Of a DNA stretch of 28,482 nucleotides, positions 4,482-27,887 are shown piece after piece. The notes under the pieces are model-generated. The model searched no databases. It was not told the DNA's origin and saw only the letters and a program-made list of their open reading frames with translations. The number at the start of each line of letters is the position of its first letter. Within the stretch, counting starts at the first letter, position 1. Origin of the DNA: a virus; the IMG/VR virus record IMGVR_UViG_3300009537_000131, positions 1-28,482 of that record; one strand, written 5' to 3'. Both the position numbers and the translations under genes were made by a program.

Positions 4482-4885
4482 GCGAGTATAGCTGGTACCT
4501 GCCCAAGATGTGGGTCGGCATTGTGGATGACCGGGAAGACAAGTATGGCGGTCCGCTGATCGGCGTCGTAATCCGCTCGGCGCGCGTTCGAGCGCTCGGC
4601 CACTTCTGCCATTGCCAGGTCAGCCTCAACGGACGCAGGGTCTGGGCCTCCGGCGCTGAAGATCGTATCTTCCCCTTCCACTCTGTCAACCTGACGGAGA
4701 TTGGAGGCACACCACCCAAGGACATGAAGACCACGGGTCTGGGATGGGCAACGGACGGCAATCGCTACTGCTTCCGCTACGGTGACCGCATCGTTGAGGT
4801 TGGCAGGGCTGCTACGGCCGGCTACGACGAGGGTCTGGTCGATGTCGACCCAACGCTCTGGAAGGCGGAGTGGAAGTCGGCTTAG
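4478..4885 (+). CDS. Hypothetical protein, 135 aa
   Basis: Starts at an ATG overlapping the previous stop, with GGAGAGG upstream at good spacing. The protein begins MSEYSWYLPKMWVGIVDDRE and is rich in aromatic residues and short beta segments (YGGPLIGVVIRSARV, NRYCFRYGDRIVEV). No domain is recognised and no membrane segment is visible. Its TAG stop is also the first three bases of the TAGTGT box of the next gene. Confidence 0.7.
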   Translation: MSEYSWYLPKMWVGIVDDREDKYGGPLIGVVIRSARVRALGHFCHCQVSLNGRRVWASGAEDRIFPFHSVNLTEIGGTPPKDMKTTGLGWATDGNRYCFRYGDRIVEVGRAATAGYDEGLVDVDPTLWKAEWKSA

Positions 4886-4888
4886 TGT
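4883..4888 (+). promoter_or_regulatory. Late-type -10 box TAGTGT, leaderless
   Basis: TAGTGT ends six bases before the ATG at 4895 (spacer AGGGGC). The TAG is also the stop of the preceding gene. See the finding on leaderless late promoters. Confidence 0.5.
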
Positions 4889-4894
4889 AGGGGC

Positions 4895-5635
4895 ATGAAG
4901 CTCCGGATCAAGAACGGCCGGGCGATGATTCGCGCTGAGAAGACTGCCGATGATGTGGTCAAACGCATCGAGGGCATCTTGCGCCAGGTCAAGGGCGTGG
5001 TCTATCGCGTCAAGGCCGAGCGCTTGAAACGGAAGCTCTCGATCTACGTCAAGCTCGCTTTGAAGACCCAGGGCTTTGACTCGACCTGGTACGTGGGGAG
5101 CTGGAGCACGCCCGATGCGAAGGAGTTCTCTCGTACCAACAAGATGTACGACCATCTCCCTGACGCGATCCGCAGCACGCTGTTCAACCTGTTCACGATC
5201 CTGCCGAACGTGATCAAGGGCTTACCTGTGTACGCGATCCGCATCGAGGTGTGGGACAACGCTGGCAAGCCCGTACACGTCTCGATCGTCAACAAGAACT
5301 ACCAGGTCAGCGGGACCGCGCTGCGCCGGGGCTACGAAGAGACGCCGCCCGACGTGAGCCAGCACAACCCCTACCACGGCTACGGCGAGAACCCCACGAT
5401 GGACTCGCCCGAGCTGATGGCGCCGCCTCCCGGGATGTATGAGGACCAGCAGCACGGAAGCATGACCTTGGTCAAGAAGCTCGGAAAGCTCGTGCTCGTC
5501 GTGGACGCTGACCAGCACTACATCGTGATCCACCCCAAGGACAAGGATTGGTGGGACGGTCCCCAGAAGGATCTCGGTGCCATCGGCCGAGAGAAGGCCC
5601 TTCGTGCCTTCGACAAGTTCAGGAGCCCTCGATGA
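4895..5635 (+). CDS. Hypothetical protein with LRIKNGRA N-terminal tag
   Basis: A 246-residue protein starting MKLRIKNGRAMIRAEK. Its first ten residues closely match those of the otherwise unrelated protein at 8462 (MRLRIRNGRAVM). After the tag, residues 17-60 look helical and basic, the middle is mixed alpha/beta (GLPVYAIRIEVWDNAGKPV), and there is a Pro/His-rich stretch with HNPYHGYGENPTMDSPE. The C-terminus has KLGKLVLVVDADQHYIVIHP. No catalytic motif is clear. With the tag and its place among tagged genes, I infer a virion-associated or capsid-internal protein. The next gene overlaps by ATGA. Confidence 0.72.
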   Translation: MKLRIKNGRAMIRAEKTADDVVKRIEGILRQVKGVVYRVKAERLKRKLSIYVKLALKTQGFDSTWYVGSWSTPDAKEFSRTNKMYDHLPDAIRSTLFNLFTILPNVIKGLPVYAIRIEVWDNAGKPVHVSIVNKNYQVSGTALRRGYEETPPDVSQHNPYHGYGENPTMDSPELMAPPPGMYEDQQHGSMTLVKKLGKLVLVVDADQHYIVIHPKDKDWWDGPQKDLGAIGREKALRAFDKFRSPR

Positions 5636-5892
5636 AGATCCCGCACAAGGACCTCCAGAGTGGTCGGACTCGCAAGGCCGCCCGAGATCTCTCACCGGCC
5701 CAGAAGGGCATCGTGCGCGTGATCGAGACGCGCCTCGACCTTCTCGAAAAGCACCTCCAGCAAGCGAGAGCAGCTCTGGACAAGTGGAAGCAGGGTGAGA
5801 GGTTCACGCCCCAGCTCGACAACGTCAAGAGCTACCTCAAGGCGGTGTTCTCCGGGGGCAAGGCTCTCCTCGCCATCGTGGACAAGCTCTAG
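5632..5892 (+). CDS. Small basic helical protein, 86 aa
   Basis: Starts at the ATG at 5632, overlapping the previous stop (ATGA). The protein begins MKIPHKDLQSGRTRKAARD and then forms one long predicted helix with heptad-like spacing (VIETRLDLLEKHLQQARAAL), suggesting a coiled coil. It ends KALLAIVDKL. Lysine and arginine are abundant, so nucleic-acid or capsid-interior binding is possible. Function unknown. Confidence 0.68.
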   Translation: MKIPHKDLQSGRTRKAARDLSPAQKGIVRVIETRLDLLEKHLQQARAALDKWKQGERFTPQLDNVKSYLKAVFSGGKALLAIVDKL

Positions 5893-5895
5893 CCT
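5890..5895 (+). promoter_or_regulatory. Late-type -10 box TAGCCT, leaderless
   Basis: TAGCCT ends five bases before the ATG at 5901 (spacer GCGTC). The TAG is also the stop of the preceding gene, and no ribosome binding site is visible. Confidence 0.4.
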
Positions 5896-5900
5896 GCGTC

Positions 5901-7214
5901 ATGCGACTCTCGGACTTTTCCAGACTTCGCCACGCACGGGCCGCAACCCCACAAGATGTGAAGAAGTGGCAGTCCGACCTGCGGCGCATGACCAAAATCT
6001 ACAGGAGCATCGACCCCAGTCCCTGGGAGTATGGCTACGGCCCCGAGCCTCAGACCGAGGAGGCCCAGAAGAAGGAGCTGGCCAAGTTCGAGGAGGCCCG
6101 CAAGCTGTTCGTCGCGTTCCGCAAGAACTTCGAGAAGTGGTACCGCTACCAGGTCCTCCCCAAGAGCACACCAGAGGAAGCCACCTGGCTCCAGAAAGAA
6201 GCGTTCGAGAAGGCGTGGGCTGCCGAGAGTGCGCTGGGCAGCCTGTTCCCAGATCGTTGGGATTTTCGCACCAAAAAGCACTTGCCCTCGCCTTGGGCTC
6301 TCAAAGCGGAGCGCGAGAGAAACATCAAGCGCTACCAGGTCAAGATGAACGAGGCGCTCAAGGCGATCGAGGAGTTCCTCCAGTCCGACCGATCACAGAA
6401 GGGCGTGCGCCCGGAGCTGGAACAGATACAGATCGAGGGCTTCCCCGTCATCCTTCGGGGCTGGAACGTCCTCGACAGTTCCGACGCGAAGAAGTCGATC
6501 GGCATCATCCGCGACGGTCTGAATCTCTACAAAGAGAACGCATCAAAGCGCCTGCCGCTACTGCTCAAGTACAAGCTCCCGTTTCACGCGGCGTGGGAGT
6601 GCCACGCTGACCAGGCAGCGACCTACAACCGAGCAGGCAACGGCCGGATCAAGCTGTGCATGAGCTGGCCCACGGCTGGACGGACAGACATCAAGCGCAT
6701 GGCCCACGTCATCGCTCACGAGATGGGCCACCACATCTGGCAGAAGGTTCTCAGCGGAAAGGCTCAGAAGTTCTGGGAAGCCGCTATCGACGCCGACTGG
6801 GCTCCGCTTGATCTTCGCAAGCTCCTCCGAATCTGGCCAGAGGACGTGAAGTTCTCCAGCTCGCTGGCTAGCAGGCTCGCGGAGAAAGACCCGACATTGT
6901 CTCTCCAGATCGAGGTGGCCAACTCTCCCTACGGCGGCAAGGGAACGAGCTTCTCTACTCGCGAAGATGCCGAGCACTTGGTTGAGCAGGGCAAGACTGT
7001 TCTCTCCCTCAAGAATCCCATCACGGAGTACGCCACCAAGAACAACGAGGAGGCGTTCTGCGAAGCGGTAGGGAGTTTGGTGGGGTACGGCCCTCGGACG
7101 CTACACCCTCTGACACGGCGCTGGCTCCAGACGATTCTACCTGGGATGCGTCTAGGCTCGACGCGCATCAGCGAGATGCTTCGGTCTAGCTTGACAATTT
7201 CACCAATCCGGTGA
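5901..7214 (+). CDS. HExxH zinc metallopeptidase-like protein, 437 aa
   Basis: Starts MRLSDFSRLRHARAA, one of the tagged N-termini in this window. Residues ~15-170 are helical and charged. The zinc signature is VIAHEMGHHIWQ with H273-E274-x-x-H277. A downstream acidic segment, ITEYATKNNEEAFCEAVG (about 374-391), is where the third ligand and neighbouring glutamates of gluzincin-type peptidases usually lie. This is a second, unrelated HExxH protein besides the ATPase fusion at 1038-2516. The tag suggests that it is carried in the capsid and perhaps ejected, but it could also act during assembly or lysis. The substrate is unknown. Confidence 0.8.
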   Translation: MRLSDFSRLRHARAATPQDVKKWQSDLRRMTKIYRSIDPSPWEYGYGPEPQTEEAQKKELAKFEEARKLFVAFRKNFEKWYRYQVLPKSTPEEATWLQKEAFEKAWAAESALGSLFPDRWDFRTKKHLPSPWALKAERERNIKRYQVKMNEALKAIEEFLQSDRSQKGVRPELEQIQIEGFPVILRGWNVLDSSDAKKSIGIIRDGLNLYKENASKRLPLLLKYKLPFHAAWECHADQAATYNRAGNGRIKLCMSWPTAGRTDIKRMAHVIAHEMGHHIWQKVLSGKAQKFWEAAIDADWAPLDLRKLLRIWPEDVKFSSSLASRLAEKDPTLSLQIEVANSPYGGKGTSFSTREDAEHLVEQGKTVLSLKNPITEYATKNNEEAFCEAVGSLVGYGPRTLHPLTRRWLQTILPGMRLGSTRISEMLRSSLTISPIR

Positions 7215-7220
7215 TATCCA
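7191..7220 (+). promoter_or_regulatory. Possible promoter before the kinase gene
   Basis: TTGACA at 7191-7196 is followed after 17-18 bases by ATATCC/TATCCA (7214-7220). The -10 is weak. It lies at the end of the peptidase gene, about 65 bases before the kinase start, which has its own ribosome binding site. Confidence 0.35.
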
Positions 7221-7282
7221 GACCCCTCTGATTTTTCTTCCGTGCGGTTCCAACCAGCGTAAAGAATAGGGGAGAGGTGCGC

Positions 7283-8239
7283 ATGTTCGTCGTTCTTGAG
7301 GGCATAGATGGGTCGGGGACTACCAGCGTTTCCCGTAAGGTTGTCGAGGCTTTGGGCCAGAGGCGGGTACCTGTCGTCTGGACGCGCGAACCATCTGACG
7401 GTCCGATGGGCAGGCTCATGCGCCAGATGCTCTCCGGCAAGATGGAGATCGACAGGCGCGCCGCGCTGGGGCTATTCGTATCCGACCGCTGGTGGCACAT
7501 CCAGAACGTCGTCCAACCCTCCCTCGCCCAAGGAAAGGTCGTCGTGTGCGACCGCTACGCCTACTCCACCTGGGTCTACCAGCAGGACACGTGGTCCACC
7601 CGGCTGCTCAAGGAGATCATGGCGGATCTGCCGGCGCCCCAGGAGGTGGGCGGGCGGCTGGGCTTCGCGGTGCTCAAAGAGCCCGTCGAAGGCAACCCCT
7701 ATCTGGAGCCGTTCTACCAGGACCAGAAGCGCTGGGCGTGGGCGATGCAAGTAGAGCTGCTTGCGCAGCGGTATGCTCTCCAGCAGCACGCCGCCACGAT
7801 CGCTGTGGGGGCCGGCGAGTGGAACGGAGCCATTCTCGACCGATCGATCTCGGGGGACCGCGTCTTCTGCAAGATGCACAGAGACGCCGGAAACATCAGC
7901 GACCTGGAGTGGCAGACCTACGAGAAGTTCTACAACATCATGTGCATGACGCTGCTGCCCCCCACGCTGATTGTCTACCTGGACTGCACGCCGGAGACAG
8001 CGCTAGAGCGCATCCATCGCCGCGACCGCGCGGCCGAGCGCGGAGGGCTCGACCTCGACTACCTCGTGCGGCTCCAGGCCGGCTACAACGACTTGTGGCG
8101 CGAGGCGGAGCACGGGCTGATGCCTTGGGGGCACGCGGTCAAGGTCATCACCCTGCTCTGGGATCCGATCCGCGACACACCCGACTGGGACAGGCACGCC
8201 GCCAAGATCAAGGATATCTGTGAGAGGCGCCTTGGGTGA
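7283..8239 (+). CDS. Thymidylate kinase-like / deoxynucleoside kinase chimera
   Basis: 318 residues from the ATG at 7283, which has GGGGAGAGG upstream at better spacing than the GTG at 7277. Residues 1-~115 read as the first half of a thymidylate kinase: P-loop EGIDGSGTTS (6-15), TREP (34-37) and VVVCDRYAYSTWVYQQ (86-101). From about residue 128 it reads as a deoxynucleoside kinase of the dCK/dGK/dAK family without its own P-loop: KEPVEGNPYLEPFYQDQKRW (132-151), ILDRSISGDRVF (184-195) and a C-terminal LDCTPETALERIHRRDRA. It probably phosphorylates deoxynucleosides or dNMPs to raise dNTP supply. Single-domain members are ~205-220 residues, so this length fits a join of 1.5 domains. Its stop overlaps the next GTG. 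Confidence 0.85.
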   Translation: MFVVLEGIDGSGTTSVSRKVVEALGQRRVPVVWTREPSDGPMGRLMRQMLSGKMEIDRRAALGLFVSDRWWHIQNVVQPSLAQGKVVVCDRYAYSTWVYQQDTWSTRLLKEIMADLPAPQEVGGRLGFAVLKEPVEGNPYLEPFYQDQKRWAWAMQVELLAQRYALQQHAATIAVGAGEWNGAILDRSISGDRVFCKMHRDAGNISDLEWQTYEKFYNIMCMTLLPPTLIVYLDCTPETALERIHRRDRAAERGGLDLDYLVRLQAGYNDLWREAEHGLMPWGHAVKVITLLWDPIRDTPDWDRHAAKIKDICERRLG

Positions 8240-8544
8240 AGTTCGATCCACACCGACCACTCCTACCTCAACTTGCTGAGGTCTTTGACCCCAAGCGACA
8301 CGGCACCACTGTGCCTGCCATCCTCGAAGAGATGGCCCGTCGACTCGATGCGCTGGACGGCGTCAAGTTCAACATCGCCCGTCGATTCACGCTGGTAGAC
8401 GCTGCCCTGGAGGAAGCCGGTCTCCGGCCAAGCTACAAGCCGCCGGGGTTAGCATCTGGGCATGAGGCTTCGGATCCGGAACGGCCGCGCGGTGATGGGC
8501 AAGCAGACTCCCCCGGGGAAGGTCAAGGTCCGCCGCAAGGATAA
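8236..8544 (+). CDS. Small hypothetical protein overlapping the next gene
   Basis: GTG at 8236 overlaps the kinase stop (GTGA). The first ~75 residues look coding (FDPHRPLLPQLAEVFDPKR, ARRLDALDGVKFNIARRF, one helix-rich unit). The last 27 codons run through the start of the gene at 8462 in another frame and are Pro/Gly/Asp-rich, like shadow sequence. The TAGCAT box of the next gene lies inside this ORF. The protein may be real with an over-long tail. Function unknown. Confidence 0.5.
   Translation: MKFDPHRPLLPQLAEVFDPKRHGTTVPAILEEMARRLDALDGVKFNIARRFTLVDAALEEAGLRPSYKPPGLASGHEASDPERPRGDGQADSPGEGQGPPQG
8450..8455 (+). promoter_or_regulatory. Late-type -10 box TAGCAT, leaderless
   Basis: GGGGTTAGCAT ends six bases before the ATG at 8462 (spacer CTGGGC). 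Here TAG is not a stop codon of the overlapping ORF, so the box cannot be explained as a stop. Confidence 0.55.
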
Positions 8545-9253
8545 CGGAAAGGTGACCTTCGTCTCCCCTGAGACGTTGGAAAGTCATCCGGACCGCTACG
8601 ACACCGCGCGCTCCCGCCGCGAAGAGAAGCAGAACCGCAAGGATCTGGCCCGCCAGGAGCGTGAGAAGCGCAACCTGGAGTATCAGAAACAGAAGGCTGA
8701 GCAGCCCGAACCGACTCGCACCGAGAAGGGACGGCAAGACGCCTTGCACAAGAAGAAGATCGAGCGTGAGGAGAAGAAGCAGAAGCTCCGCAGCCGGGTG
8801 AAGCAGCGCATCAAGAAGAAGAAGCAGAAGGCTCGGCAAGAGCAGAAGGACCGACGCAAGCAGCTCCAGGATAAGGCCAAGCAGATCCAAGAGCAGCGTG
8901 ACCGCACGAACCAGTGGTCCAAGATCAAGGACGACCATCCGGAGCTGAGCCCCAAGGAGCAAGAGGATCGGCAGAAGACGTTCATGGAGACTGGAGTCGA
9001 TTCTGGTGGCCGCTCTACCAAAGCCATCCGCTGGTGGTTCAAGAACTACGGTGGGGGATCCCAGGAAGAGGGCTCCCAACCGAAGCGCCTCGACAAGAAG
9101 TCGATCCAGGATCACTTCAAGTACGGACCCAAGCCCAACAAGAAGGGCGAGTGCTCTGGGGGCTTGAAGGCGATCCCCATCCGAAGTTCGGGAGGATCTC
9201 CCTTCACCATTTGCGTGGACCCGAATGTCTACGACCTCAAGAAGGGGAAGTGA
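8462..9253 (+). CDS. Highly charged coiled-coil protein with LRIRNGRA tag
   Basis: 263 residues. After the tag MRLRIRNGRAVMGKQ comes a short basic segment, then residues ~50-165 are almost entirely Lys, Arg, Glu and Gln (for example EEKKQKLRSRVKQRIKKKKQ), a long single helix or coiled coil. The last ~80 residues are more ordinary, with TKAIRWWFKNYGGGS and IRSSGGSPFTICVDPN. The strong positive charge would suit DNA binding inside the head. Shared N-terminal residues with the protein at 4895 suggest a common targeting tag. Overlaps the next ORF by GTGA. Confidence 0.75.
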   Translation: MRLRIRNGRAVMGKQTPPGKVKVRRKDNGKVTFVSPETLESHPDRYDTARSRREEKQNRKDLARQEREKRNLEYQKQKAEQPEPTRTEKGRQDALHKKKIEREEKKQKLRSRVKQRIKKKKQKARQEQKDRRKQLQDKAKQIQEQRDRTNQWSKIKDDHPELSPKEQEDRQKTFMETGVDSGGRSTKAIRWWFKNYGGGSQEEGSQPKRLDKKSIQDHFKYGPKPNKKGECSGGLKAIPIRSSGGSPFTICVDPNVYDLKKGK

Positions 9254-9324
9254 AGTACCCCGAGGTCGTCTTATTCGCGGGGCTCGGTATTCTCCTGGCT
9301 CTGCTCTGGTGGCTGACACGATGA
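9250..9324 (+). CDS. 24-residue single-span membrane peptide
   Basis: GTG at 9250 overlaps the previous stop (GTGA), and the TGA at 9322-9324 overlaps the next ATG (ATGA). AAGGGGAA precedes the start. The peptide is VKYPEVVLFAGLGILLALLW followed by WLTR: one hydrophobic span with a charged residue near each end. The double overlap makes it fill exactly the space between two genes, which supports translation. Very small membrane peptides in phages can act in lysis or in modifying host membrane proteins; no specific role can be given. Confidence 0.6.
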   Translation: MKYPEVVLFAGLGILLALLWWLTR

Positions 9325-9584: not shown

Positions 9585-9598
9585 GAGAGGAACGTGCC

Positions 9599-10879: not shown

Positions 10880-10908
10880 AGTATGCTCTATGTAGTACAG
10901 AATGTCAA
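10880..10908 (-). promoter_or_regulatory. Strong minus-strand promoter with palindromic spacer
   Basis: On the minus strand TTGACA (10908-10903), a 17-nt spacer and CATACT (10885-10880). The spacer contains TGTACTACA, an odd-length palindrome (10891-10899). The same spacer element occurs at 227-235 and in diverged form at 3580-3588. Confidence 0.75.
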
Positions 10909-10945
10909 GCACGGTCAGAGAGAAAGCCCGCAGAAAGTCCCGGGT

Positions 10946-10951
10946 TAGTTT
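10946..10951 (+). promoter_or_regulatory. Late-type -10 box TAGTTT, leaderless
   Basis: CGGGTTAGTTT in intergenic DNA ends five bases before the ATG at 10957 (spacer GGAGC). It is not part of any stop codon, since the upstream gene is on the other strand. Confidence 0.6.
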
Positions 10952-10956: not shown

Positions 10957-11646
10957 ATGGCCGATGATTCTCGGATGCTGCCTCGTGTTGGTGTCGTCTT
11001 CGATCTGGACGGTACGCTCATCGACTCGACGCACGAGTTCGTCCCCGATGACTTGACCGAACTGCTGAAGGACGAGCCGCTAGAGCCGACCTATTCTGAA
11101 GCGAAGGTCTGGGAGACCAAGACGATGACGGTCGACGTGGTGTACCTCACCGCGCGAGACGCCATGCTCTGGCCTGTCTCCAAGATCTGGCTGTCGAGTC
11201 ACAAGCTGTTCGGCAAGCTGATCTGCCGGCCGCCGAGCGTTCCTCCGGAGGACATCCCGATCTGGAAGGCCGAGACCGTGCTCCAGCTCGCCTGCCAGCA
11301 CGGGTGGCAACACGTGACCGTCTACGAGAACGACCCGACGAACCTGGCCGCGATCCAGGCTGTGCTCCCCCCAATGACGGTGAGCCCCACCCTGGTCAAA
11401 GCGGACGGCGACAAGACGGTCCCCGAGTCCACGGTGACAGGTCTGCCTGAGCAGGACATCATCAACCTCAAGATCCTTATGGGCCGGCTGGCCCCCGACG
11501 ATCCCTCGTGGAAGTCCTTGCTGCTGCGCAAGTGGCCGAGCCGGTCGGCCCTCCTAGACGCAGCTCTCGACTACATCCCCGGCAAGTTCAAACGTCGCAT
11601 GTTCCGCCAGCTCGTGGACGAGATCTGGATGGGACATCGGGCATAG
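10957..11646 (+). CDS. HAD-superfamily phosphatase
   Basis: 229 residues. Motif I is VVFDLDGTLIDS with D16 and D18. Motif II is in VVYLTARDA. A lysine candidate for motif III is in IPIWKAETVLQL. Motif IV is TVYENDPTNL with the acidic pair around residue 127. The cap is small, and the pattern YLTAR...K...ENDP resembles phage polynucleotide-phosphatase or nucleotidase-type HAD proteins, so a nucleotide or a 3'-phosphorylated end is the likely substrate (inference). The last ~60 residues are a separate helical basic region (SWKSLLLRKWPSRSALLD). No N-terminal tag. TAG stop is shared with the next promoter box. Confidence 0.82.
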   Translation: MADDSRMLPRVGVVFDLDGTLIDSTHEFVPDDLTELLKDEPLEPTYSEAKVWETKTMTVDVVYLTARDAMLWPVSKIWLSSHKLFGKLICRPPSVPPEDIPIWKAETVLQLACQHGWQHVTVYENDPTNLAAIQAVLPPMTVSPTLVKADGDKTVPESTVTGLPEQDIINLKILMGRLAPDDPSWKSLLLRKWPSRSALLDAALDYIPGKFKRRMFRQLVDEIWMGHRA

Positions 11647-11649
11647 GAT
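11644..11649 (+). promoter_or_regulatory. Late-type -10 box TAGGAT, leaderless
   Basis: TAGGAT ends five bases before the ATG at 11655 (spacer AGGCC). Its TAG is the stop codon of the HAD gene. Confidence 0.5.
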
Positions 11650-15768: not shown

Positions 15769-15777
15769 TTTCTGGTC

Positions 15778-15783
15778 TAGTGT
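15778..15783 (+). promoter_or_regulatory. Late-type -10 box TAGTGT, near-leaderless
   Basis: GGTCTAGTGT lies in the short gap after the SNase stop and ends eight bases before the ATG at 15792 (spacer AGGGTGAC). The TAG is not a stop codon of the upstream gene. Confidence 0.5.
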
Positions 15784-15791: not shown

Positions 15792-16016
15792 ATGAAACTG
15801 TCAGAGCTGATGCGTTCGGCCGCGACAACGGATCCGGAGGAGGCCCGCCAGGTCATCGCCGAGTTCCAGGAGTATGTCGAGCGCAACCAGTTCGGCTTCA
15901 GCAAGATAGGGGGGACGCCCCTCCAGCGCGAGATTGGGAACCTGCTACGTCGGTTGGCAACGGTCTCTGAGATGCTGGAGCTGGTCGAAGAGACTGGCGA
16001 ACCCCTGGAGACTTAG
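15792..16016 (+). CDS. Small protein with MKLSELMRSA tag, 74 aa
   Basis: Starts MKLSELMRSAATTDPEEAR and is otherwise a single helix-rich unit (VIAEFQEYVERNQFGFSK, LLRRLATVSEMLELVEE). No known domain. The tag and its location just before the terminase region suggest a virion-associated protein. The TAG stop is followed by GGAG, which is the ribosome binding site of the next gene. Confidence 0.72.
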   Translation: MKLSELMRSAATTDPEEARQVIAEFQEYVERNQFGFSKIGGTPLQREIGNLLRRLATVSEMLELVEETGEPLET

Positions 16017-16506: not shown

Positions 16507-18594
16507 GTGTCAGACGATAATACCGACCGTCGCCCTCCTGACCAACGACGGCGGAAGAAGAAGAAGCGGCGGGAGGTCAGCCGCTCGGACAAGCAGCCTC
16601 AGAGCAAGGATCTCTTCGATCCAACCGAGCTTCTGGAGGCCGCGATTGCCCAGGGCCTCGAAGCTGGCTACGCCGAGGTCGACGACAGAGATATACCCAG
16701 GGCAAACAACGTCGTCGAGTGGCTCACAAGCCCTGATTTTCTCAACATAAAACCGTTCGCGAAGCAGGTCGAGGACGCCATCCATGTCTTCACAGCGGCC
16801 TGCTACTTCTGTAGTGACACGGACTACCTACTCGACATCCCGGTCGACGAGAAGCTGGCCAACATCCTCGACCGGGCCACCCTCATGCAGCGCGGACGGT
16901 GCCCAAAATGCAAGCGCCGCGCTGTTGAGATGCGCTACGAGTGGTGCCTCGACCCAGGCAACGATGGCCTTGGTATCCTCAAACCGGATCCACCCAACGA
17001 CATCTGCTGTCTTGAGGGACAGCGGTCGGGCAAGAGCACCAAGACCGCGATGTACGCGACCTGGGTGCTACATCGCTTCCTCAACCTGGGAAATCCCACC
17101 AAGTTCTTCGGTCTCCTGGAAGCCGTCGGCGCGTTGCACGGGACCTTCGTCTCAGTCACAGCCAAGCAGGCGTGGGAGAACCTTTGGCAGCCCTTCAGCG
17201 ACCTCATCGACTCTGCCCCGTGGTTCAAGACCTACCACAAGTGGCTCGATGACCAGGGAGAGGAGCTGGGAATCTCCCTCTGGCACAAGCCCGACACGTA
17301 CCTCTGGTACGGCCACAAGCGTCTGGCTCTCAGCTTCGCTCCGGCCGACCAGCGGACGTTGCGCGGGCGCACGCGGTTCATCTCTGCGGTAGACGAGCTG
17401 GGCTGGTTCGGGGCTTCGAAGGACCGCTCAGGGACCTCTCGCGTTCGCGCGGATGGTGATGGAACGGTCCGTGCGCTAGACCGATCCCTCGCGACGATCC
17501 GGAACTCGGCATCGAAACGCCGCAAGAATCGAGGCCAGAACTGCCCTGACGGCTACCAGTTCACGATCTCCAGCCCCTCCGCGGCGACAGATCCGATGAT
17601 GCGGCGCTACAAGCGATCGAACCGCAGCCCTCGGCGGTACTCCGTCCTCCGGGCGACGTGGGAGAGCAACCCCATGTTCACGGAAGAGACGCTGCGCGAG
17701 CAAGAGGGCGATGTCACCGAGCGTGACTTCCTGTGCGACTTCGCCTGCAATCCTCCGTACTCCGACGATCCCTGGTGGGAGAGCGAGTCTGCCCTCCTCG
17801 ATCTCTGCTCCAAGAAGGACGTGCGCCTGTGGAGTGGCACCGCGGAGATGCTGAAGGACAAGGCAGGCGGGCGGTTCCGCTACCTGTACTACAAGTTCAG
17901 CGCGCTGTCCTCAGACATGACGCTTCCTCGCTGCCTGTCTTTCGACAACGGGGAGAAGAACAACAGCTTCGCCTGGGCCGTCTCGCGGTTTGACAAACAG
18001 AACGACACAGTGCTGGTTGAAGAAGCGGGAGAGGTTGCGCCAGGGGACAACGAGCGCATTCACCACGGGCTGATGTGGGAACACGTCATAGAGCCCTTGG
18101 TCAAGCGCTTCCGGTTCCTGCATGTGGTCTGGGACCGTTGGGAAAGTACCCGCTATGTCGCTGACCTACGGACCAAGTACGGTATCCGAGCCGAGCAGTA
18201 CAGCCCTGGGATGAAGGACGGCAAGAACCTGCGCTCGGACATGAAGAACTCCAAGATCCTGCTGCCGATGCCCGAGTGTCCCATCGACAAGCTCCCGATC
18301 GAGAACCCGGTGGAGCTGGCGCGCACTCCCCGTGCTCACCTACTGCTCCAAGTCCTGACCTCCCGAGACGGCAACGGTCTCCCCCTCAAGCCCCAAGGTG
18401 GCAACGACGACATCCTCCGCGCTGTGCTCCTGGGCCGCGTATTCATCCGGGACAACGAGAACGACTACGGTCGCTACCGATATTCTGGCAGTGGACGGTG
18501 CGTGGGCATCGGTGTGGGTGGAGCTGTCGGGCGCGGACAGGGCCTTGTTTTTGGTCACGGCGGCCGGCCGCTAGGGGTCGGACCTCGATACTGA
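16507..18594 (+). CDS. Terminase large subunit
   Basis: 695 residues from GTG 16507, immediately after the previous TAG. The ATPase has Walker A EGQRSGKST with K176 and Walker B FISAVDELGW with D296-E297. The RNase-H-type nuclease is indicated by acidic residues in LSFDNGEKNN (D480), VVWDRWES (D543) and GGNDDILRA (D634/D635). An N-terminal ~140-residue extension contains a four-Cys element (CYFC and CPKCKRR). This protein cuts concatemers and drives DNA into the prohead through the portal. The last ~30 residues are Gly-rich (RCVGIGVGGAVGRGQG), atypical for the family. The portal gene follows after one small gene. Confidence 0.92.
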   Translation: MSDDNTDRRPPDQRRRKKKKRREVSRSDKQPQSKDLFDPTELLEAAIAQGLEAGYAEVDDRDIPRANNVVEWLTSPDFLNIKPFAKQVEDAIHVFTAACYFCSDTDYLLDIPVDEKLANILDRATLMQRGRCPKCKRRAVEMRYEWCLDPGNDGLGILKPDPPNDICCLEGQRSGKSTKTAMYATWVLHRFLNLGNPTKFFGLLEAVGALHGTFVSVTAKQAWENLWQPFSDLIDSAPWFKTYHKWLDDQGEELGISLWHKPDTYLWYGHKRLALSFAPADQRTLRGRTRFISAVDELGWFGASKDRSGTSRVRADGDGTVRALDRSLATIRNSASKRRKNRGQNCPDGYQFTISSPSAATDPMMRRYKRSNRSPRRYSVLRATWESNPMFTEETLREQEGDVTERDFLCDFACNPPYSDDPWWESESALLDLCSKKDVRLWSGTAEMLKDKAGGRFRYLYYKFSALSSDMTLPRCLSFDNGEKNNSFAWAVSRFDKQNDTVLVEEAGEVAPGDNERIHHGLMWEHVIEPLVKRFRFLHVVWDRWESTRYVADLRTKYGIRAEQYSPGMKDGKNLRSDMKNSKILLPMPECPIDKLPIENPVELARTPRAHLLLQVLTSRDGNGLPLKPQGGNDDILRAVLLGRVFIRDNENDYGRYRYSGSGRCVGIGVGGAVGRGQGLVFGHGGRPLGVGPRY

Positions 18595-18603
18595 TTTCGG
18601 GAT

Positions 18604-18609
18604 TAGCAT
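18604..18609 (+). promoter_or_regulatory. Late-type -10 box TAGCAT, with leader
   Basis: GGGATTAGCAT lies in the gap after the terminase. The next ATG is 24 bases further on and has AGGAGTGA, so this copy serves a leadered gene. Confidence 0.5.
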
Positions 18610-18633: not shown

Positions 18634-18975
18634 ATGGCCAGGATCCCGACCCTCCACCAGTGGGTGGACAGCTACTTCCAAGGGCAGCACGTTCATCCGG
18701 AGGTCCGGAAGGAAGTGCGCACCGCTCTGCGTATCGCGGGCTTCTCCGCAGGAGTTTCCGTCAAGCGCGAGAGTCTGGCGATCAAGATCGCGCACCGCGT
18801 CGTTCACAACGATGCGATGTCGGTTCAGGCCGAAGCGAGAGTCGCCGCCGTCGTCAGTGCGGACAGCGCGTGCCCCCGCTGTGGGTCCGCGATGGTCGAC
18901 GCGAAGCTGGCGACCGGCACGCAGTCCCGCTACTGCTCGAACCCCAAGTGCCGGGTCTGCGCCTACGTCGAGTAG
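18634..18975 (+). CDS. Zinc-ribbon protein, 113 aa
   Basis: ATG at 18634 with AGGAGTGA seven bases upstream. Residues 1-70 are helical (ARIPTLHQWVDSYFQGQ, TALRIAGFSAGVSVKRESLA). The C-terminus has CPRCGSAMVDAK then YCSNPKCRVC, a CxxC...CxxxxCxxC ribbon. It sits between terminase and portal, a common place for small packaging or head proteins. Exact role unknown. Confidence 0.75.
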   Translation: MARIPTLHQWVDSYFQGQHVHPEVRKEVRTALRIAGFSAGVSVKRESLAIKIAHRVVHNDAMSVQAEARVAAVVSADSACPRCGSAMVDAKLATGTQSRYCSNPKCRVCAYVE

Positions 18976-18988: not shown

Positions 18989-21013
18989 TTGTTCACGATC
19001 ACTCGTAAGCGGCTCGGAGGTCCCGGCCTCCGAACTGCCAGCAACGGCAGCGCGACGGCGAATGCCTCTCCTCACTTGAGGCAGGCGGCGGGCGACTTCC
19101 CGATCCCTGTTGGCCCTTCCGGCTCTAATCAGCAGTACACGCAGCTCAGCCCAGTCACCGAGAGGCTAGAGCGCGGTACGGTCGCCCACGACTGGATCCC
19201 ACGAGACACCCGCACGATGAACCGCGTTGTGCGGCTCATCTACCTCACGGATCCCGTAGCCGGACCAGCCATCGACTTCTACCGTGAGGTTCCGTTCGGA
19301 CCCGTGGTGCTTGGGGGGATCAAGGACGAGAAGCTCCTCCAGTTCTACACGGACGCGCTCGACGCTATCAAGCTCCAGCGGCATCTTCCGTTTCTCGCGG
19401 GGGACATCCTGGTCGAGGGTCGGTTGATCACACACCTCCTGCTCAACGAGTCGAAAGGCTACTGGCAGGAGATGATCGTCCACGACTCCGACTATGTGCT
19501 GGTCGAGCCCTCTCCCATCGTCGGGGAGGAACCCACGATCGACCTGATGGTCCCTCCCTCCTATCAGCGGTGGGCCACCAGTGCCGACCCGCGTGTTATC
19601 GCTCAACGCAAGCGACTCGATCCCAAACTCGTCACGATGATGGCAGCCGGAGCCACGATTCCGCTCTCCCCAGAGAACACCATCTTCGTGCCTCGTCGCT
19701 CCAGTGCGCATGACGTGATGGGCACCTCGCTGTTGATGCGGATCCTCCCTGTCATCGCAGTCGAGTGGGCCTATCTGCAATCTGAGGTCACAGGTCTGCG
19801 CCGCCGGGCTGCCCCGTGGACGATCGCCAAGGTCGGCATCGAGGACAAGTGGGAGGCGACACCCGAAGAGATGATGGCGATCCAGGACATGATGGTCGCT
19901 GCCGAGGAGGATCCTGTAGGCGCGAAGCTCGTCTTCCGCAACGGCGTGGAGATCGAATCGACCTCTGCCCATCACACCGAGCTGGCGAAGTGGATCGAGC
20001 AGTGGGGTGTGTTCAAAGAGGCGAAGCTTCAGGGCCTCGGGATGAACGAAGCCTTCGCCACAGGAGAGGCGTCCTGGTCGTACTTGGAGTCGATGTTGTC
20101 GCTCGGCATGGAGCGCATCCGCAACTTCCGTCAGTTCATCGCAGTCGAGGTTGTGCGCGAAGGACTGCTGGCACCGCTCGCCAAGATGCACGGCTTCTAC
20201 AAGCGGTCGCAGGCAGAGCTGGCCCACCGCATTCGTGTGTCTCCCAACACCGACGACAACCTCCTCGTTCCCACCTGCGAGTGGAGCCGTTCGCTGCAAC
20301 CGACAGCAGACCGCGACTACCTCGACATCTTGGAGATGCTCGAAAGCAAGGGGCTTCCGATCCCACTGCGCAAGTGGGCGCAGGCTGGCGGATACGACCT
20401 CGAAGAAGCGTTGGGAGGTACGAAGGGCGACATCGATCTTCGCAAGCGGCTCGCGGCCTACAAGAAGCAGATCGAAGCGATCGACGGGCCACAAGAAGAC
20501 GAAGATGGCGGCGGCAGTCGCTACAGCAGCGCGATCATCACCGAAGCGGTGGCTGAGCTTCCGGTCTGGGATCAGATGGGCGAGTTTCTCACGCTGCGCC
20601 GCGGGGAGGTCTCGCGGATGGCGGACTACATGGAGTCGCTCCACGTCAACGGCCGCAAGCCCGGAGTGCGTGACTGGAGCCGCATTGAAGCGCGCATGAA
20701 GGACGACGGCATCTCCTACACGAAGATCCGATCGTTTCGCTATCTCGTTACCCGAGCCGGGTTCATCGACGCGCCGCTCCCCAACAAGACTGTCGTCAAG
20801 GTGCGCGACGAGATCCTGCGCAAGCTCAACGGCCGCACCCCTGATCGCCACGCGATGCGAGAAATCTACTGGCTCAATCACGAGCTGGACAAACGCGAGA
20901 TCGAGGATCCACGCGAGGTCGTCAGTCGCGCCGTCCCCAACGTGAGCGCCGCTCCTTGGGTTCGTCCAGCAGGACCACGCCTGCTCACTGGGGAGGGCTT
21001 CGAGGAGGGTTAG
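18989..21013 (+). CDS. Portal protein
   Basis: 674 residues. Start chosen as TTG 18989 with AAGGTGA about 4 bases upstream; no in-frame ATG is better placed. The N-terminus is a flexible Gly/Ala/Ser-rich stretch. The core has LIYLTDPVAGPAIDFYREVP, a pattern usual near the start of portal cores, then a long mixed body with MGTSLLMRILPVIAVEWAY and a helix-rich end. Position between the terminase and prohead protease supports the call. The portal forms the twelve-subunit ring at one vertex through which DNA is packaged and to which the tail attaches. The end (about 490-640) has extra helical domains not typical of the core. Confidence 0.85.
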   Translation: MFTITRKRLGGPGLRTASNGSATANASPHLRQAAGDFPIPVGPSGSNQQYTQLSPVTERLERGTVAHDWIPRDTRTMNRVVRLIYLTDPVAGPAIDFYREVPFGPVVLGGIKDEKLLQFYTDALDAIKLQRHLPFLAGDILVEGRLITHLLLNESKGYWQEMIVHDSDYVLVEPSPIVGEEPTIDLMVPPSYQRWATSADPRVIAQRKRLDPKLVTMMAAGATIPLSPENTIFVPRRSSAHDVMGTSLLMRILPVIAVEWAYLQSEVTGLRRRAAPWTIAKVGIEDKWEATPEEMMAIQDMMVAAEEDPVGAKLVFRNGVEIESTSAHHTELAKWIEQWGVFKEAKLQGLGMNEAFATGEASWSYLESMLSLGMERIRNFRQFIAVEVVREGLLAPLAKMHGFYKRSQAELAHRIRVSPNTDDNLLVPTCEWSRSLQPTADRDYLDILEMLESKGLPIPLRKWAQAGGYDLEEALGGTKGDIDLRKRLAAYKKQIEAIDGPQEDEDGGGSRYSSAIITEAVAELPVWDQMGEFLTLRRGEVSRMADYMESLHVNGRKPGVRDWSRIEARMKDDGISYTKIRSFRYLVTRAGFIDAPLPNKTVVKVRDEILRKLNGRTPDRHAMREIYWLNHELDKREIEDPREVVSRAVPNVSAAPWVRPAGPRLLTGEGFEEG

Positions 21014-21016
21014 GCT
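21011..21016 (+). promoter_or_regulatory. Late-type -10 box TAGGCT, leaderless
   Basis: GGGTTAGGCT ends five bases before the ATG at 21022 (spacer ACAGC). TAG is the stop codon of the portal gene. Confidence 0.5.
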
Positions 21017-24157: not shown

Positions 24158-24176
24158 GCGCGCTCGCACTCGGGGT

Positions 24177-24182
24177 TAGGAT
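24177..24182 (+). promoter_or_regulatory. Late-type -10 box TAGGAT, leaderless
   Basis: GGGGTTAGGAT in intergenic DNA ends five bases before the ATG at 24188 (spacer CCACC). The upstream gene has already ended with TAA, so this TAG is not a stop. Confidence 0.6.
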
Positions 24183-24187
24183 CCACC

Positions 24188-24664
24188 ATGAAACTCGGCC
24201 GCATCGTTCGGGCAGCGTTTGTGGAGCGGCACGTGGTACGAGAGGCCGCGGGCGCGGCGGACTGGATCTCGCCCAAGCACAAGCAGAAGAAGCCGAAGAC
24301 GGGAGACCCACACCCGAAAGGTGGGGTCTACACGTACCGGACGACCGTTCAGGGCGTCCGGGAAGCTCTCGCGTTTCTGCTCAACGACGACGTGCGTATC
24401 GGCCGAGTGATCAAGATCGGCTGCCGCGACCCCGGGCAGACGTGGCTCGTCGAGGTGTCCAAGCCAGGTGCCAACTCGCTGACGAAGAAGAAGCCCGACG
24501 ATCCCGAGGACAGCACGTACATCTATGACCCGAACCAGGGGGTCCCCAGTGCGATCCTTGTATATCACCTGGGCGATCAGCTCACCTGGACGGGAGACGT
24601 GTACGACAGCTTCGAGGCGGCCATCGTCGAGCACTCAGGTGGCATCAAGGCGGTGGCACCATGA
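24188..24664 (+). CDS. Tagged hypothetical protein, 158 aa
   Basis: Starts MKLGRIVRAAFVERHVV, no ribosome binding site, with the TAGGAT box placed for a leaderless start. A basic stretch (KHKQKKPKTGDPHPKGG) is followed by a small alpha/beta domain (TTVQGVREALAFLLNDDVRI, QTWLVEVSKPG, SAILVYHLGDQLTW). No catalytic motif. Likely virion-associated by its tag and neighbours. Overlaps the next gene by ATGA. Confidence 0.73.
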   Translation: MKLGRIVRAAFVERHVVREAAGAADWISPKHKQKKPKTGDPHPKGGVYTYRTTVQGVREALAFLLNDDVRIGRVIKIGCRDPGQTWLVEVSKPGANSLTKKKPDDPEDSTYIYDPNQGVPSAILVYHLGDQLTWTGDVYDSFEAAIVEHSGGIKAVAP

Positions 24665-24897: not shown

Positions 24898-24903
24898 AGA
24901 TAC

Positions 24904-24941
24904 TGAGGTTCGGCTGCGAAGCAGCAGCGCCTTCAACCTCA
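24904..24941 (+). terminator. Branched hairpin, possible terminator or RNA element
   Basis: TGAGGTT (24904-24910) pairs with AACCTCA (24935-24941), enclosing a second stem GCTGC-GAA-GCAGC (24913-24925). A weak T-rich stretch follows (TTGGTCTTATC). It lies between the tagged genes and the scaffold-like gene and may end or process the upstream transcript. Confidence 0.5.
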
Positions 24942-24974
24942 ATTGGTCTTATCAGAGAGCGCGTCAAGTTCTGG

Positions 24975-24983
24975 GTTAGTAAT
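24975..24983 (+). promoter_or_regulatory. Late-type promoter box GTTAGTAAT, with leader
   Basis: CTGGGTTAGTAAT precedes the scaffold-like gene by about 65 bases. The hexamer fits TAGNNT less well because the final T is one base late, but the GGGTTAG context is the same. The gene has GGAGG at its start. Confidence 0.4.
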
Positions 24984-25046
24984 TAGGGGAAATCCGCTGG
25001 CGCGACTATCGGTGCGTTCCAGCGCATCGTTGATTTGGAGGCAATC

Positions 25047-26486
25047 GTGACTGCTTTGCAAAAGCTGCTGAGACAAGCCGAGGGCGCGACCAGGCCCGCC
25101 GACGCGGATGAGGAGATCGTCGATTCCCTCAAGGCGCTGTCGGACGATACCGAGGAGGTCTCCGCCTTCCTGCACAACCTCGTCGACATCGACAAACAGC
25201 GCGCGGCCCAGTACCTCGTGCAGTGTCGGACCTTCCTGCCCGAGCTGTTCGGATCGCTCAAGCAGGCGATGGAGCCGATGCCCCCCGAGATGGGCGCCGA
25301 CGACGAAGAGGACGAGCCGTTCGACGACGACGAGGATCAGGGTCTGCCCCCGGACCTCGGCGACGAGAACGAGGAGGAAGAAGGCGGGATGCCCCCGGAG
25401 ATGGGTGGCGACGAGCCGATGCCTCCCGAGATGGGTGGCGAAGAGGAGCCCGAGATGCCCGGCGAAGAGGAGCCGGAGATCCCGGGCGAAGAGGAGCCCG
25501 AGATGGGCGCCGACGAGCCGATGCCCCCCGAGATGGGCGCCGACGACGATGCGGCCGAGGACTCCGCGATGCCTCCCGAGATGGGCGGCGACGAGGATCC
25601 CGAGGACGAGGAGCCGGGCGAGGACGAGGTCGCCGTCGAGCCCGTCGTGGACCAGGACGAGCTGGACTCCGAGGAAGCCAACGCGGACGACCTCGACATG
25701 GTCCTGTTCCAGTCCGCCGCGTCCAAGGGTCCGCACTGGTCGGTCTTCTACCGGGGACGCCCACTGTGCGCGATCAGGCTGGCCGACCAGGACAACGCCG
25801 AGGAGATCGCCGAGATCTTCACCTCCGAGGAGTACCCGCAGCACGTCAAGGACGCCTGTGCCTCTCCGATCGGCATCCGCGAGACGCTCGCCAGCCTCAA
25901 CGCCCACTGGTACATGGGCGTGATCAGCACCGGCACCGTCGCCGCCGAGGCCCGCGAGTCCGCGGCCCGCGAGCTGGAGGACGAGTTCGCTGGCCGCCTG
26001 GCGTCGCTCAAGGAGGACCTGCTCAACACGGTCAACCTCGCGATCGTCGCCAGCAACAAGGGCGCCAAGGGTCTGTTCGTCGAGAACAAGCTCAAGGCCG
26101 CCTGCGTCCAGGTTCTGCGCGATGCCGGGGTGGCCAACCCCGCGGGCGCGCTCAACGAGGTCTGGGCCGAGGCTGCCCAGGACTACATGCAGGACATCCT
26201 CAAGGTCGCCGAGAAGTGGCTGGGCTACAGCGCCGAGGCCATGCAGGAGGTGACCGCGGAGATCGTCGGGACCGAGGTCGAGGTGGACCTGCCCGAGGTC
26301 GAGGACGAGACCCCGGCCGCCATCCAGGCCGCCGCGCGCCGTCAGGCAAGCACCGGGATCACCAGTGTGCCCATTCGCACCCGTCAGCCGTTCGTTCACG
26401 GGAGCGAGGACGACTACAAGCAGGTCCAGAACCAGCGCGTCGCCTCGACGCTGTCGCGCCGCATGGGCCGTAGTCGGCTGGGCTAA
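25047..26486 (+). CDS. Acidic scaffold-like head assembly protein
   Basis: 479 residues from GTG 25047, chosen because GGAGG lies five bases upstream; a TTG at 25035 overlaps that site and is rejected. Residues ~1-75 are helical. Residues ~78-200 are low-complexity acid repeats built on MPPEMGG/GADDE and EEEPEMPGEEEP, then a mixed domain from LFQSAASKGPHWSVFYRG, then long helices (ARELEDEFAGRLASLKEDLL). The C-terminus has ITSVPIRTRQPFVHG and a basic tail. Acidic, helical and placed between prohead protease and major capsid, it matches the position and composition of scaffold or core proteins cleaved by the protease. Confidence 0.72.
   Translation: MTALQKLLRQAEGATRPADADEEIVDSLKALSDDTEEVSAFLHNLVDIDKQRAAQYLVQCRTFLPELFGSLKQAMEPMPPEMGADDEEDEPFDDDEDQGLPPDLGDENEEEEGGMPPEMGGDEPMPPEMGGEEEPEMPGEEEPEIPGEEEPEMGADEPMPPEMGADDDAAEDSAMPPEMGGDEDPEDEEPGEDEVAVEPVVDQDELDSEEANADDLDMVLFQSAASKGPHWSVFYRGRPLCAIRLADQDNAEEIAEIFTSEEYPQHVKDACASPIGIRETLASLNAHWYMGVISTGTVAAEARESAARELEDEFAGRLASLKEDLLNTVNLAIVASNKGAKGLFVENKLKAACVQVLRDAGVANPAGALNEVWAEAAQDYMQDILKVAEKWLGYSAEAMQEVTAEIVGTEVEVDLPEVEDETPAAIQAAARRQASTGITSVPIRTRQPFVHGSEDDYKQVQNQRVASTLSRRMGRSRLG
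25270..25625 (+). repeat. Degenerate acidic coding repeats
   Basis: Units encoding (P)MPPEMG(G/A)D and EEEPE(M/I)PG recur at least nine times, made of GC-rich codons such as GATGCCCCCCGAGATGGGC. They probably change copy number by slippage. Confidence 0.75.
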
Positions 26487-26499
26487 CGCCCGATCAGCG

Positions 26500-26529
26500 C
26501 CTGGGTACTTGAGAACCAGGTTCTAGTCT
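26500..26529 (+). promoter_or_regulatory. Hairpin plus late-type promoter GTTCTAGTCTTA
   Basis: CCTGG (26500-26504) and CCAGG (26516-26520) form a weak stem, followed directly by GTTCTAGTCTTAAT with TAGTCT at 26524-26529. The same GTTCTAGTCTTA occurs before the major capsid gene. A leader of about 40 bases leads to a ribosome binding site. Confidence 0.6.
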
Positions 26530-26575
26530 TAATCGGATTCAGGGACACATACCCGACGAAAAAGAGGAAAGAGAA

Positions 26576-27355
26576 ATGCCGATTCCCCCAATCCATCCAG
26601 GCGCGTTGACCCAGCACAAGATCGATCGCTCGCGCTCCTACTGGGCCAAGCTCATCGAGCGTCCTCTCGCGGACGCCAACAGCTACACCCAGGAAGGCGA
26701 CTGCATGGTCCAGCTCGCGCAGGCGGGTGACAACCAGATCGTCTTCGACCGCAGCGCAGGCGTGGCCAACGAGCAGTTCGTCGGCTGCGCGATCAGCGAC
26801 TACCGCCGGATCACCGACTTCGTCGATGTCGAGACCACGACGGTCCCGAGCGTCGCCGCCTACACCTTCCAGCTCAAGCACACGGCGCCGACCGCCGGCT
26901 CGTTCTTCCTGCAAGACGCCGCCGGTACGGTCATGACCGACGTGAGCCCCGGCGCTCCCGGCGCGGTCAACGAGTACAGCGTCTCGGCCGGCGGGCTGGT
27001 GACCTTCCACGCGGCCAAGGCCGGGGTGGTCATCTCGATCATCCGCTACACCTACACGCCGAACGTGCAGGAGCTGAACAGCATGTTCTACCAGCGTCCG
27101 CTGGTGGCGCAGGGGCAGACCCGGCTCGCGCAGGTGCCGGTCGCCGTCGGCGACTGCGAGATGTACACGACGGCCTACGACACGAGCGACACCTACGCCA
27201 TCGGGGCGCGGGTGTACACGGGCGCCAACGGCAAGTTCACCACGACCAACACAGCCGTCATGGTCGCGGGCGTCGTGGTCAGCCTACCGGCGGTCAACGA
27301 CGTGTTCCTGGGCGTGCAGTACACGACGCGCGTCCCGGGCGCGATGACGTTCTAG
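26576..27355 (+). CDS. Head decoration-like/structural protein, 259 aa
   Basis: ATG at 26576 with AGAGGAAAG a few bases upstream. The protein begins MPIPPIHPGALTQHKIDRSR and is beta-rich, with many Thr, Val, Ala and Gly (for example GSFFLQDAAGTVMTDVSPG, GGLVTFHAAKAGVVISIIRY). The second half has TAYDTSDTYAIGARVYTG and ends VPGAMTF. Composition and position between scaffold and major capsid match capsid decoration (cement) or other head surface proteins, but no family signature is certain. A strong leadered promoter suits a protein made in many copies. Confidence 0.65.
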   Translation: MPIPPIHPGALTQHKIDRSRSYWAKLIERPLADANSYTQEGDCMVQLAQAGDNQIVFDRSAGVANEQFVGCAISDYRRITDFVDVETTTVPSVAAYTFQLKHTAPTAGSFFLQDAAGTVMTDVSPGAPGAVNEYSVSAGGLVTFHAAKAGVVISIIRYTYTPNVQELNSMFYQRPLVAQGQTRLAQVPVAVGDCEMYTTAYDTSDTYAIGARVYTGANGKFTTTNTAVMVAGVVVSLPAVNDVFLGVQYTTRVPGAMTF

Positions 27356-27380
27356 TTCTGCTGATGGTGCGAGGCGCTGA

Positions 27381-27869
27381 GTGGGACTTCTGGTTGACCG
27401 GCTGGCCATCGTCCAGCACGAGCTGCTCCAACTTCAGGGGCGTCTCGTTGCCCAGGGCGACACAGCCGGAGCAGTCATGCAGCAGGTCCTCATCGATCGG
27501 CTGCAAGAGGTATTGCTCAGCGTCGATGGCACCGCGGTAGATCGACACTGGGAGGCGACGGAGGCGGCGGTAGAGGCCGCGGGCAAGCTGAGATTCCCGA
27601 AGTCGCGTGGTGGCAAGGGGATCAAGAAGAAGGGCAGGCGAAAGCCTGGCCGGCTGGTTTGGATCTGCTGCGGGGAGCCCCAAAGGAATGTAGGTCGCAA
27701 GGGGCGGCCCATTTGGACAGCAGCCTGCCAGTGGAGGAAGGGCGACGTGAGGGGCCAGACGATGCGTCTGGTTGGCACTGGGTCATCGAAGCCCAGTGCC
27801 GTAGTGCTGAAGGGCCGGAAGATGAAGAAGTGCAACATGGCCCAAGAACCGGAGAACCAACGCCGCTGA
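27381..27869 (+). CDS. Small basic hypothetical protein, 162 aa
   Basis: GTG at 27381 with GAGG upstream. The first ~70 residues are helical (GLLVDRLAIVQHELLQLQGR, AVMQQVLIDRLQEVLLSVDG). A basic segment (GGKGIKKKGRRKPGRL) leads to a Cys-containing end with VWICCGEPQRNVGRKGRPIW. No known domain. Inserted between the decoration-like and capsid genes. The start is uncertain, since an ATG at 27364 is in another frame. Confidence 0.6.
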   Translation: MGLLVDRLAIVQHELLQLQGRLVAQGDTAGAVMQQVLIDRLQEVLLSVDGTAVDRHWEATEAAVEAAGKLRFPKSRGGKGIKKKGRRKPGRLVWICCGEPQRNVGRKGRPIWTAACQWRKGDVRGQTMRLVGTGSSKPSAVVLKGRKMKKCNMAQEPENQRR

Positions 27870-27878
27870 CGGGCTGCG

Positions 27879-27887
27879 TTCTAGTCT
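27879..27887 (+). promoter_or_regulatory. Late-type promoter GTTCTAGTCTTA before the capsid gene
   Basis: GTTCTAGTCTTATT with TAGTCT at 27882-27887 matches the element before the decoration-like gene over 12 bases. A leader of about 40 bases and GAGGAG precede the ATG. Confidence 0.6.

Follow-up and report, generated by a model that had tools for sequence, protein, structure and literature searches.

The phage-encoded sigma factor gp36 of phiEco32 lacks region 4 and recognises promoters made of one element, from which transcription starts 6-8 bp downstream (PMC8948821). Phages of the PaBG group encode a sigma-70-family protein of their own (PMC7412058). Here, a TAGNNT box that recurs just before start codons was analysed in a 28.5-kb fragment (62% GC) of one IMG/VR virus record, IMGVR_UViG_3300009537_000131 (28,482 nucleotides, hereafter the window). 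A reading of this DNA from its letters alone (hereafter the sequence-only reading) had taken the box for a candidate phage-specific, leaderless late promoter. Our analysis indicates that the box is probably a single-element late promoter of the sigma type that gives rise to leaderless messenger RNA (mRNA) and is read by a factor different from the ordinary housekeeping holoenzyme, with a phage sigma that lacks region 4 as the best candidate.

Late phage promoters made of a single element are already known, and so are leaderless -10 promoters. With the middle and late promoters of phiEco32 the TAG box shares the single element, the lack of a -35 and the late genes served, together with a downstream start that is predicted here (PMC8948821). 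However, the phiEco32 element is tAATGTAtA and not GGNNTAGNNT, leaderless mRNA is not described there (PMC8948821), and its sigma factor is proven, whereas the factor proposed here is deduced from sister phages. Bacterial leaderless genes preceded by TANNNT (Zheng 2011 PMC3160421; Zhong 2025 PMC12340547) have the same -10 geometry; their ATG lies at the start site, as is predicted here, and they lack a Shine-Dalgarno sequence, where the short-gap genes studied here show a weaker pairing as a group. In contrast, the box studied here has a fixed G as third base and GG at -16/-15, and it is confined to the + strand of the structural region, the classical class being found in another place. The start-associated signal (SAS) of cluster K mycobacteriophages (PMC3203893) is also a short conserved sequence just before many phage starts and contains GG..TAG, but it spans 13 bp, ends in GGAGCCC, has a Shine-Dalgarno-like core and lacks the T at position 6. 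The SigA promoters of cluster O mycobacteriophages (PMC4351075) resemble the box in that leaderless phage mRNAs are predicted, with +1 on the start codon, but they have host-type -35 and -10 elements and are few per genome. Finally, the jumbo phages PaBG and Lupandier (PMC7412058) have related terminase, portal and capsid proteins, although at ~30% identity and with no leaderless TAG box; PaBG shows a possible TAATTTACT element instead. A phage-specific class uniting a single element with a leaderless -10, with GG replacing TGN, was not found in the literature searched, and the combination of a single-element late promoter with leaderless placement appears to be new.

TAGNNT was present at every coordinate listed by the sequence-only reading. 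Nine genes had been said to carry it at a short distance; eight have that arrangement, with boxes at 4883, 5890, 8450, 10946, 11644, 15778, 21011 and 24177 located 5-8 nt upstream of ATGs that open long frames (gaps of 6, 5, 6, 5, 5, 8, 5 and 5, respectively). At gaps of 5-6 to an ATG, the window holds seven TAGNNT boxes on the + strand and one on the - strand. Dinucleotide shuffles of the window gave a mean of 0.64 and none of 300 reached seven, and at gaps of 0-4, 9-12 and 13-16 the counts were at background. Scans of IMG/VR returned two close relatives only: G001 (contig 3300037461_000242, 33.5 kb, comprising L010 and L003) and G002 (contig 3300017963_001073, 14.8 kb, the same as L019). When the three contigs were pooled, TAGNNT-N5/6-ATG was observed 16 times against 2.0 expected, and TAGNNT was the most enriched among the 256 boxes of the form XYZNNW. 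The enrichment at gene starts over shuffled controls, which had been put forward as a check of the promoter proposal, was thus confirmed.

The boxes of the window are as follows.

4879..4888, + strand: class L box GGCTTAGTGT, gap 6 to the ATG at 4895 (gene 4895-5635)
5886..5895, + strand: weak class L box GCTCTAGCCT, gap 5 to the ATG at 5901 (gene 5901-7214)
8446..8455, + strand: class L box GGGTTAGCAT, gap 6 to the ATG at 8462 (gene 8462-9253)
10942..10951, + strand: class L box GGGTTAGTTT, gap 5 to the ATG at 10957 (gene 10957-11646, HAD/LNS2-like)
11640..11649, + strand: class L box GGCATAGGAT, gap 5 to the ATG at 11655 (gene 11655-13247)
15774..15783, + strand: class L box GGTCTAGTGT, gap 8 to the ATG at 15792 (gene 15792-16016)
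21007..21016, + strand: class L box GGGTTAGGCT, gap 5 to the ATG at 21022 (gene 21022-23253, in the protease position by gene order and containing an intein)
24173..24182, + strand: class L box GGGTTAGGAT, gap 5 to the ATG at 24188 (gene 24188-24664)
18600..18609, + strand: leadered class L box GGATTAGCAT, upstream of gene 18634-18975
24973..24983, + strand: variant leadered box GGGTTAGTAAT, upstream of gene 25047-26486 (acidic protein, scaffold position)
26520..26529, + strand: leadered box GTTCTAGTCT, upstream of gene 26576-27355
27878..27887, + strand: leadered box GTTCTAGTCT, upstream of the major capsid gene (27935 to the window end)
7183..7192, + strand: possible extra leadered box GGTCTAGCTT, uncertain, 91 nt upstream of the kinase gene 7283-8239

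In order to define the signal beyond the box, 18 short-gap and nine leadered boxes from the three contigs were aligned. A G was found four bases before the box in all 27 sites and at -3 in 17 of the 18 short-gap sites, neither position having been used to choose the sites, in sequence of which G makes up 31%. The sixth box base was T in 14 of the 18 TAG sites picked without using that base, and, once the TGN-TAC class described below was set aside, 14 of the remaining 16 short-gap sites had G as third base. The core signal is GGNNTAGNNT, larger than had been reported, and the upstream bases, previously given as often GGGT, are better described as a GG at positions -4/-3 relative to the box.

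The held-out window (~57,000 positions) was then scored with a matrix built from sites of the two relatives, a test that is not fully independent because some of the training sites are orthologues of window sites. The eight highest positions were 10946, 4883, 24177, 8450, 21011, 11644, 15778 and 18604, all of them boxes of the sequence-only reading, which had suggested such a matrix. The top 13 matches were all on the + strand and included 24977, 26524 and 27882. The box at 5890 was the weakest fit and lay outside the top matches, and the possible box at 7183..7192 scored 9.7.

Orthologous genes are preceded by boxes in two or three of the contigs. The orthologue of box 8450 is GGTTTAGCTT in L019 (at 1134), that of box 11644 lies in L019 at 4484, and box 10946 has a counterpart in L019 (3780) and a leadered one in L003 (6851). 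Both orthologues of the gene behind box 15778 are boxed (L019 8299, gap 9; L003 9182, gap 5 to a GTG). Box 21011 recurs in L019 at 14719 and is missing at the L003 orthologue of gene 21022, and box 24177 has an L003 box (15614) at the matching operon position, but before a different small gene. The leadered copies that had been reported at 18604, 26524 and 27882 are also kept at orthologous genes: box 18604 recurs in L003 at 12017 and in L019 at 12312, and box 26524 is represented by an identical CCAGGTTCTAGTCTTAA in L003. Even the site at 24977, described earlier as a weaker variant, proved to be real and conserved, with GGGTTAGTTAT at the L003 orthologue.

The position of the box fits a -10 element, for which TANNNT is expected ~6-7 bases before the start site; the start codon is 5-6 nt away in most short-gap sites. 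If TAGNNT is read as a -10 (T-12 to T-7), a gap of 6 sets +1 on the A of the ATG, and a gap of 5 falls within the usual range of start-site choice. Bacterial transcription usually prefers a pyrimidine at -1 and a purine at +1. A C directly before the start codon, as expected from this preference, was found in 17 of 18 box genes versus 27 of the 84 called genes that lack one. No -35 beyond chance was found at the TAG boxes: at 16-18 bp, the lowest mismatch counts to TTGACA equalled those of random sites, in agreement with the absence of a -35 noted before. Neither was the TG of the classical extended -10 (-15/-14) present in any GG..TAG site, where GG occupies -16/-15; TG was found in the separate TAC class.

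The median energy of Shine-Dalgarno pairing was -4.1 kcal/mol for short-gap genes, weaker than for box-free genes (-6.3; p=0.018) and for leadered box genes (-6.8; p=0.002), with random sites at -3.0. The missing ribosome binding site claimed for most short-gap genes therefore holds as a tendency of the group and not gene by gene: the site at 10946 has GGAG and that at 15778 has AGGGTGA near the ATG, and some short-gap sites retain partial purine stretches. Judged from this geometry, the mRNAs would most likely start exactly on the first codon and need no ribosome-binding leader.

One important question is whether a second promoter class exists in this lineage. Early-type genes of G001 carry TTGACR-17-TGCTACWGT in near-identical copies (L010 6902 and 13100; L003 282, 1275 and 2914), and in four of these five the start codon lies 6 nt after TTGACR-17-TGC-TAC(T/A)GT. 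TTGAC(A/G)-16/18-TANNNT occurs ten times in G001, both strands considered, against ~0.2 expected. By their sequence these would be complete classical sigma-70 promoters, leaderless by position. When the short-gap ATG sites were limited to those that have TANNNT and open a frame of 60 codons or more, 11 were of the type GG..TAG..T and four of the type TG.TAC..T. In G001 the TAG class was confined to the structural half, rightward of 16.8 kb. The existence of two such classes is the best evidence that it is not the unmodified housekeeping holoenzyme that reads the TAG class. The timing implied by the word late is deduced from the structural gene cluster that the TAG class serves. Repeats of TTGACA with GTAC closely behind (TTGACACCTGTACTACAG and similar) were also seen before leftward genes of the window (221-244, 703-720 and 10891-10910, - strand), where they may be an operator or early promoter motif. 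The early region of the relative encodes, in addition, a Ro60-like TROVE and vWA protein (L010 672-2297).

The alternative that retains most weight is that the boxes are -10 elements of the host housekeeping factor (sigma A/HrdB-type), for example in an actinobacterium or a deinococcus, so that nothing would be phage-specific, or only a phage co-activator. Host sigma A may also read the box as an unusual extended -10. Leaderless genes, which make up more than 20% of the genes in Actinobacteria and Deinococcus-Thermus, are characterised by TANNNT ~10 bp upstream of the start (PMC3160421), an isolated -10 adjoining an open reading frame acts as a promoter in D. radiodurans (PMC12340547), and leaderless SigA promoters have been predicted in cluster O mycobacteriophages (PMC4351075). 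We nevertheless consider it rather unlikely. The three middle positions carry little information in high-GC hosts (PMC3160421), whereas most short-gap sites outside the TGN-TAC class have G as third base and a GG is added at -16/-15, and a relative holds the classical class with -35 and TGN separately.

A translational or protein-binding start-associated signal, comparable to the SAS of cluster K mycobacteriophages and not a promoter, would account for boxes directly preceding start codons and for the GG..TAG common to both (GGGATAGGAGCCC; PMC3203893). It is very unlikely, because the leadered genes carry the same box ~30-65 nt upstream of their starts, where no ribosome site is possible, and because the SAS contains GGAG and the TAG box has a T at position 6. 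When GGGATAGGAGCCC was sought in 77 kb with at most two mismatches, no match fell at a box and a single one occurred elsewhere (G001 17525).

The four short-gap boxes at 4883, 5890, 11644 and 21011 do double as the stop of the upstream gene, as had been pointed out (the TAG at 4883 ends gene 4478-4885). Tight packing that places upstream TAG stops 11-12 nt before the next start is nonetheless highly improbable as the cause of the pattern, since the remaining half of the short-gap boxes are not stops, GG at -4/-3 is found with 7 of the 9 TAG stops that belong to a box but with 3 of the 35 others (p=1e-4), T at position 6 is not general among TAG stops and the leadered copies are conserved; the shuffles, the 255 other box types and the other TAG stops thus rule out both chance and a by-product of stop codons.

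The identity of the factor was approached through the phages to which the window is related, for which two proteins served as reference.

16507..18594, + strand: large terminase subunit, basis for the PaBG-group placement
18989..21013, + strand: portal protein, query by which the relatives were found

The terminase and portal of G001 are 71% and 70% identical to those of the window, and the portal of G002 is 81% identical. The window terminase is ~30% identical to that of PaBG and related jumbo phages (genomes of 190-270 kb), the portal 27-30% and the capsid 32-34% identical to those of the PaBG group. All three proteins are thus homologous to those of this group, in which the lineage can be placed; its full genome is expected to exceed 200 kb, the three fragments being a minor part. 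With the capsid as query, no relative beyond those already known was found.

Eight sigma proteins of PaBG-group phages were aligned, three were scanned with Pfam, and they were also compared to solved structures. Region 2 alone was detected by both approaches, and the proteins end before region 4.2 could fit, finishing in a short stretch that resembles the beginning of region 4.1 (L037-L046; sigma at ~10001-11014 in L037). A region-4 model gave nothing above the cut-off in four large sister records. In an AlphaFold model of a sister-phage sigma the C-terminal half was poor (pLDDT ~30-45). A sigma without region 4 could not read a -35, and by analogy a phage sigma of this kind may serve the present lineage. 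PaBG itself shows a candidate one-element signal, TAATTTACT, whose 8-mer TAATTTAC occurs at nine sites, shuffled words being found 0.84 times on average. It is repeated ~30-115 nt before several PaBG genes (e.g. 64914, 114294 and 204374; L055-L067), with no -35, and is possibly the promoter of the PaBG sigma.

In the mechanism that we favour, GGNNTAGNNT would be the entire core of the late promoter in this PaBG-related jumbo phage lineage. A sigma-type factor would read TAGNNT as a -10 (T-12, A-11, T-7) plus the GG at -16/-15, without using a -35, and transcription would begin 6-7 bases past the box. In most late genes the start base would be the A of the ATG, and the resulting leaderless mRNA would be translated through recognition of the 5' start codon; in the capsid-region genes the same box would be followed by a leader that carries a strong Shine-Dalgarno sequence. 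This specificity would be distinct from that of the classical -35/TGN/-10 promoters at the early-type genes of the relative, and the likeliest factor would be a phage sigma without region 4, as in the sister phages of the PaBG group, acting with the host core polymerase. The fullest version of this proposal, in which the lineage's own region-4-less sigma reads a new extended element and one promoter code sets the mode of translation (leaderless late genes, strong-leader head genes), is advanced tentatively, as a possibility that falls somewhat short of probable.

Several observations weigh against this mechanism. Sigma region 2 was not found in any of the three fragments, the window and its two relatives. 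The PaBG-group sister phages that have sigma genes do not show the leaderless TAG box, and PaBG does not have GGNNTAGNNT before starts; a shared sigma would have had to change its specificity. The boxes at 26524 and 27882 have the G at -4 but none at -3, TAGNNT also matches the general TANNNT of high-GC hosts, and the evidence comes from three contigs in which some orthologous sites are non-independent. Of the earlier interpretation, what stands on the enrichment, motif, position, conservation, lack of a -35 and division into two classes read from the DNA is a box that is neither chance nor a stop-codon accident, has -10-like geometry and differs from the sigma-70-type class; the start site, timing, leaderless translation and factor are predictions from it.

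If the mechanism is true, a phage late regulon would be linked to leaderless translation through promoter placement alone, providing a natural system in which leaderless and leadered translation from one promoter can be compared. It would also explain how a sigma without -35 contacts acquires specificity, and would point to a host with strong leaderless translation. The box in itself offers a genome-wide signature for locating the sigma gene and for binning further fragments of the lineage.

The host was sought by scanning 85,000 genomes of bacteria and archaea twice, which gave no relative, and Pfam scans of the relatives revealed no host marker. A DNA scan with CCAGGTTCTAGTCTTA returned only the known relative plus low-GC chance matches, and a scan with GGGTTAGNNTN{4,5}CATGAARCT returned three unrelated contigs of 60-63% GC with one match each, two of them near-identical.

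Other features were noted in the window and its relatives. Gene 18634-18975, which has its own leadered box between terminase and portal, encodes a small, conserved, cysteine-rich protein with a C-terminal CxxC...CxxxxC pattern and no Pfam match. The intein in gene 21022-23253, which follows the portal gene, has a LAGLIDADG domain. The terminase frame of L019 (9053-12301) is enlarged to 1082 aa, apparently by an insert; L003 has neither this insert nor the intein. Thymidylate kinase and deoxynucleoside kinase form one fused protein in the window (7283-8239) and are encoded by adjacent genes in L003 (4128-4727 and 4727-5440). Unrelated proteins of the window, with or without a TAG box, begin with similar short N-termini (genes at 4895, 5901, 8462, 9321, 9599, 13868, 15792, 23253, 23483, 24188 and 24661), such as MKLSEIIRKA, MKLSELMRSAA, MRLSEIIRAG, MKLGRIVRAAF and MKLRIRNGRA, which resemble a capsid-targeting or protease-processed tag.

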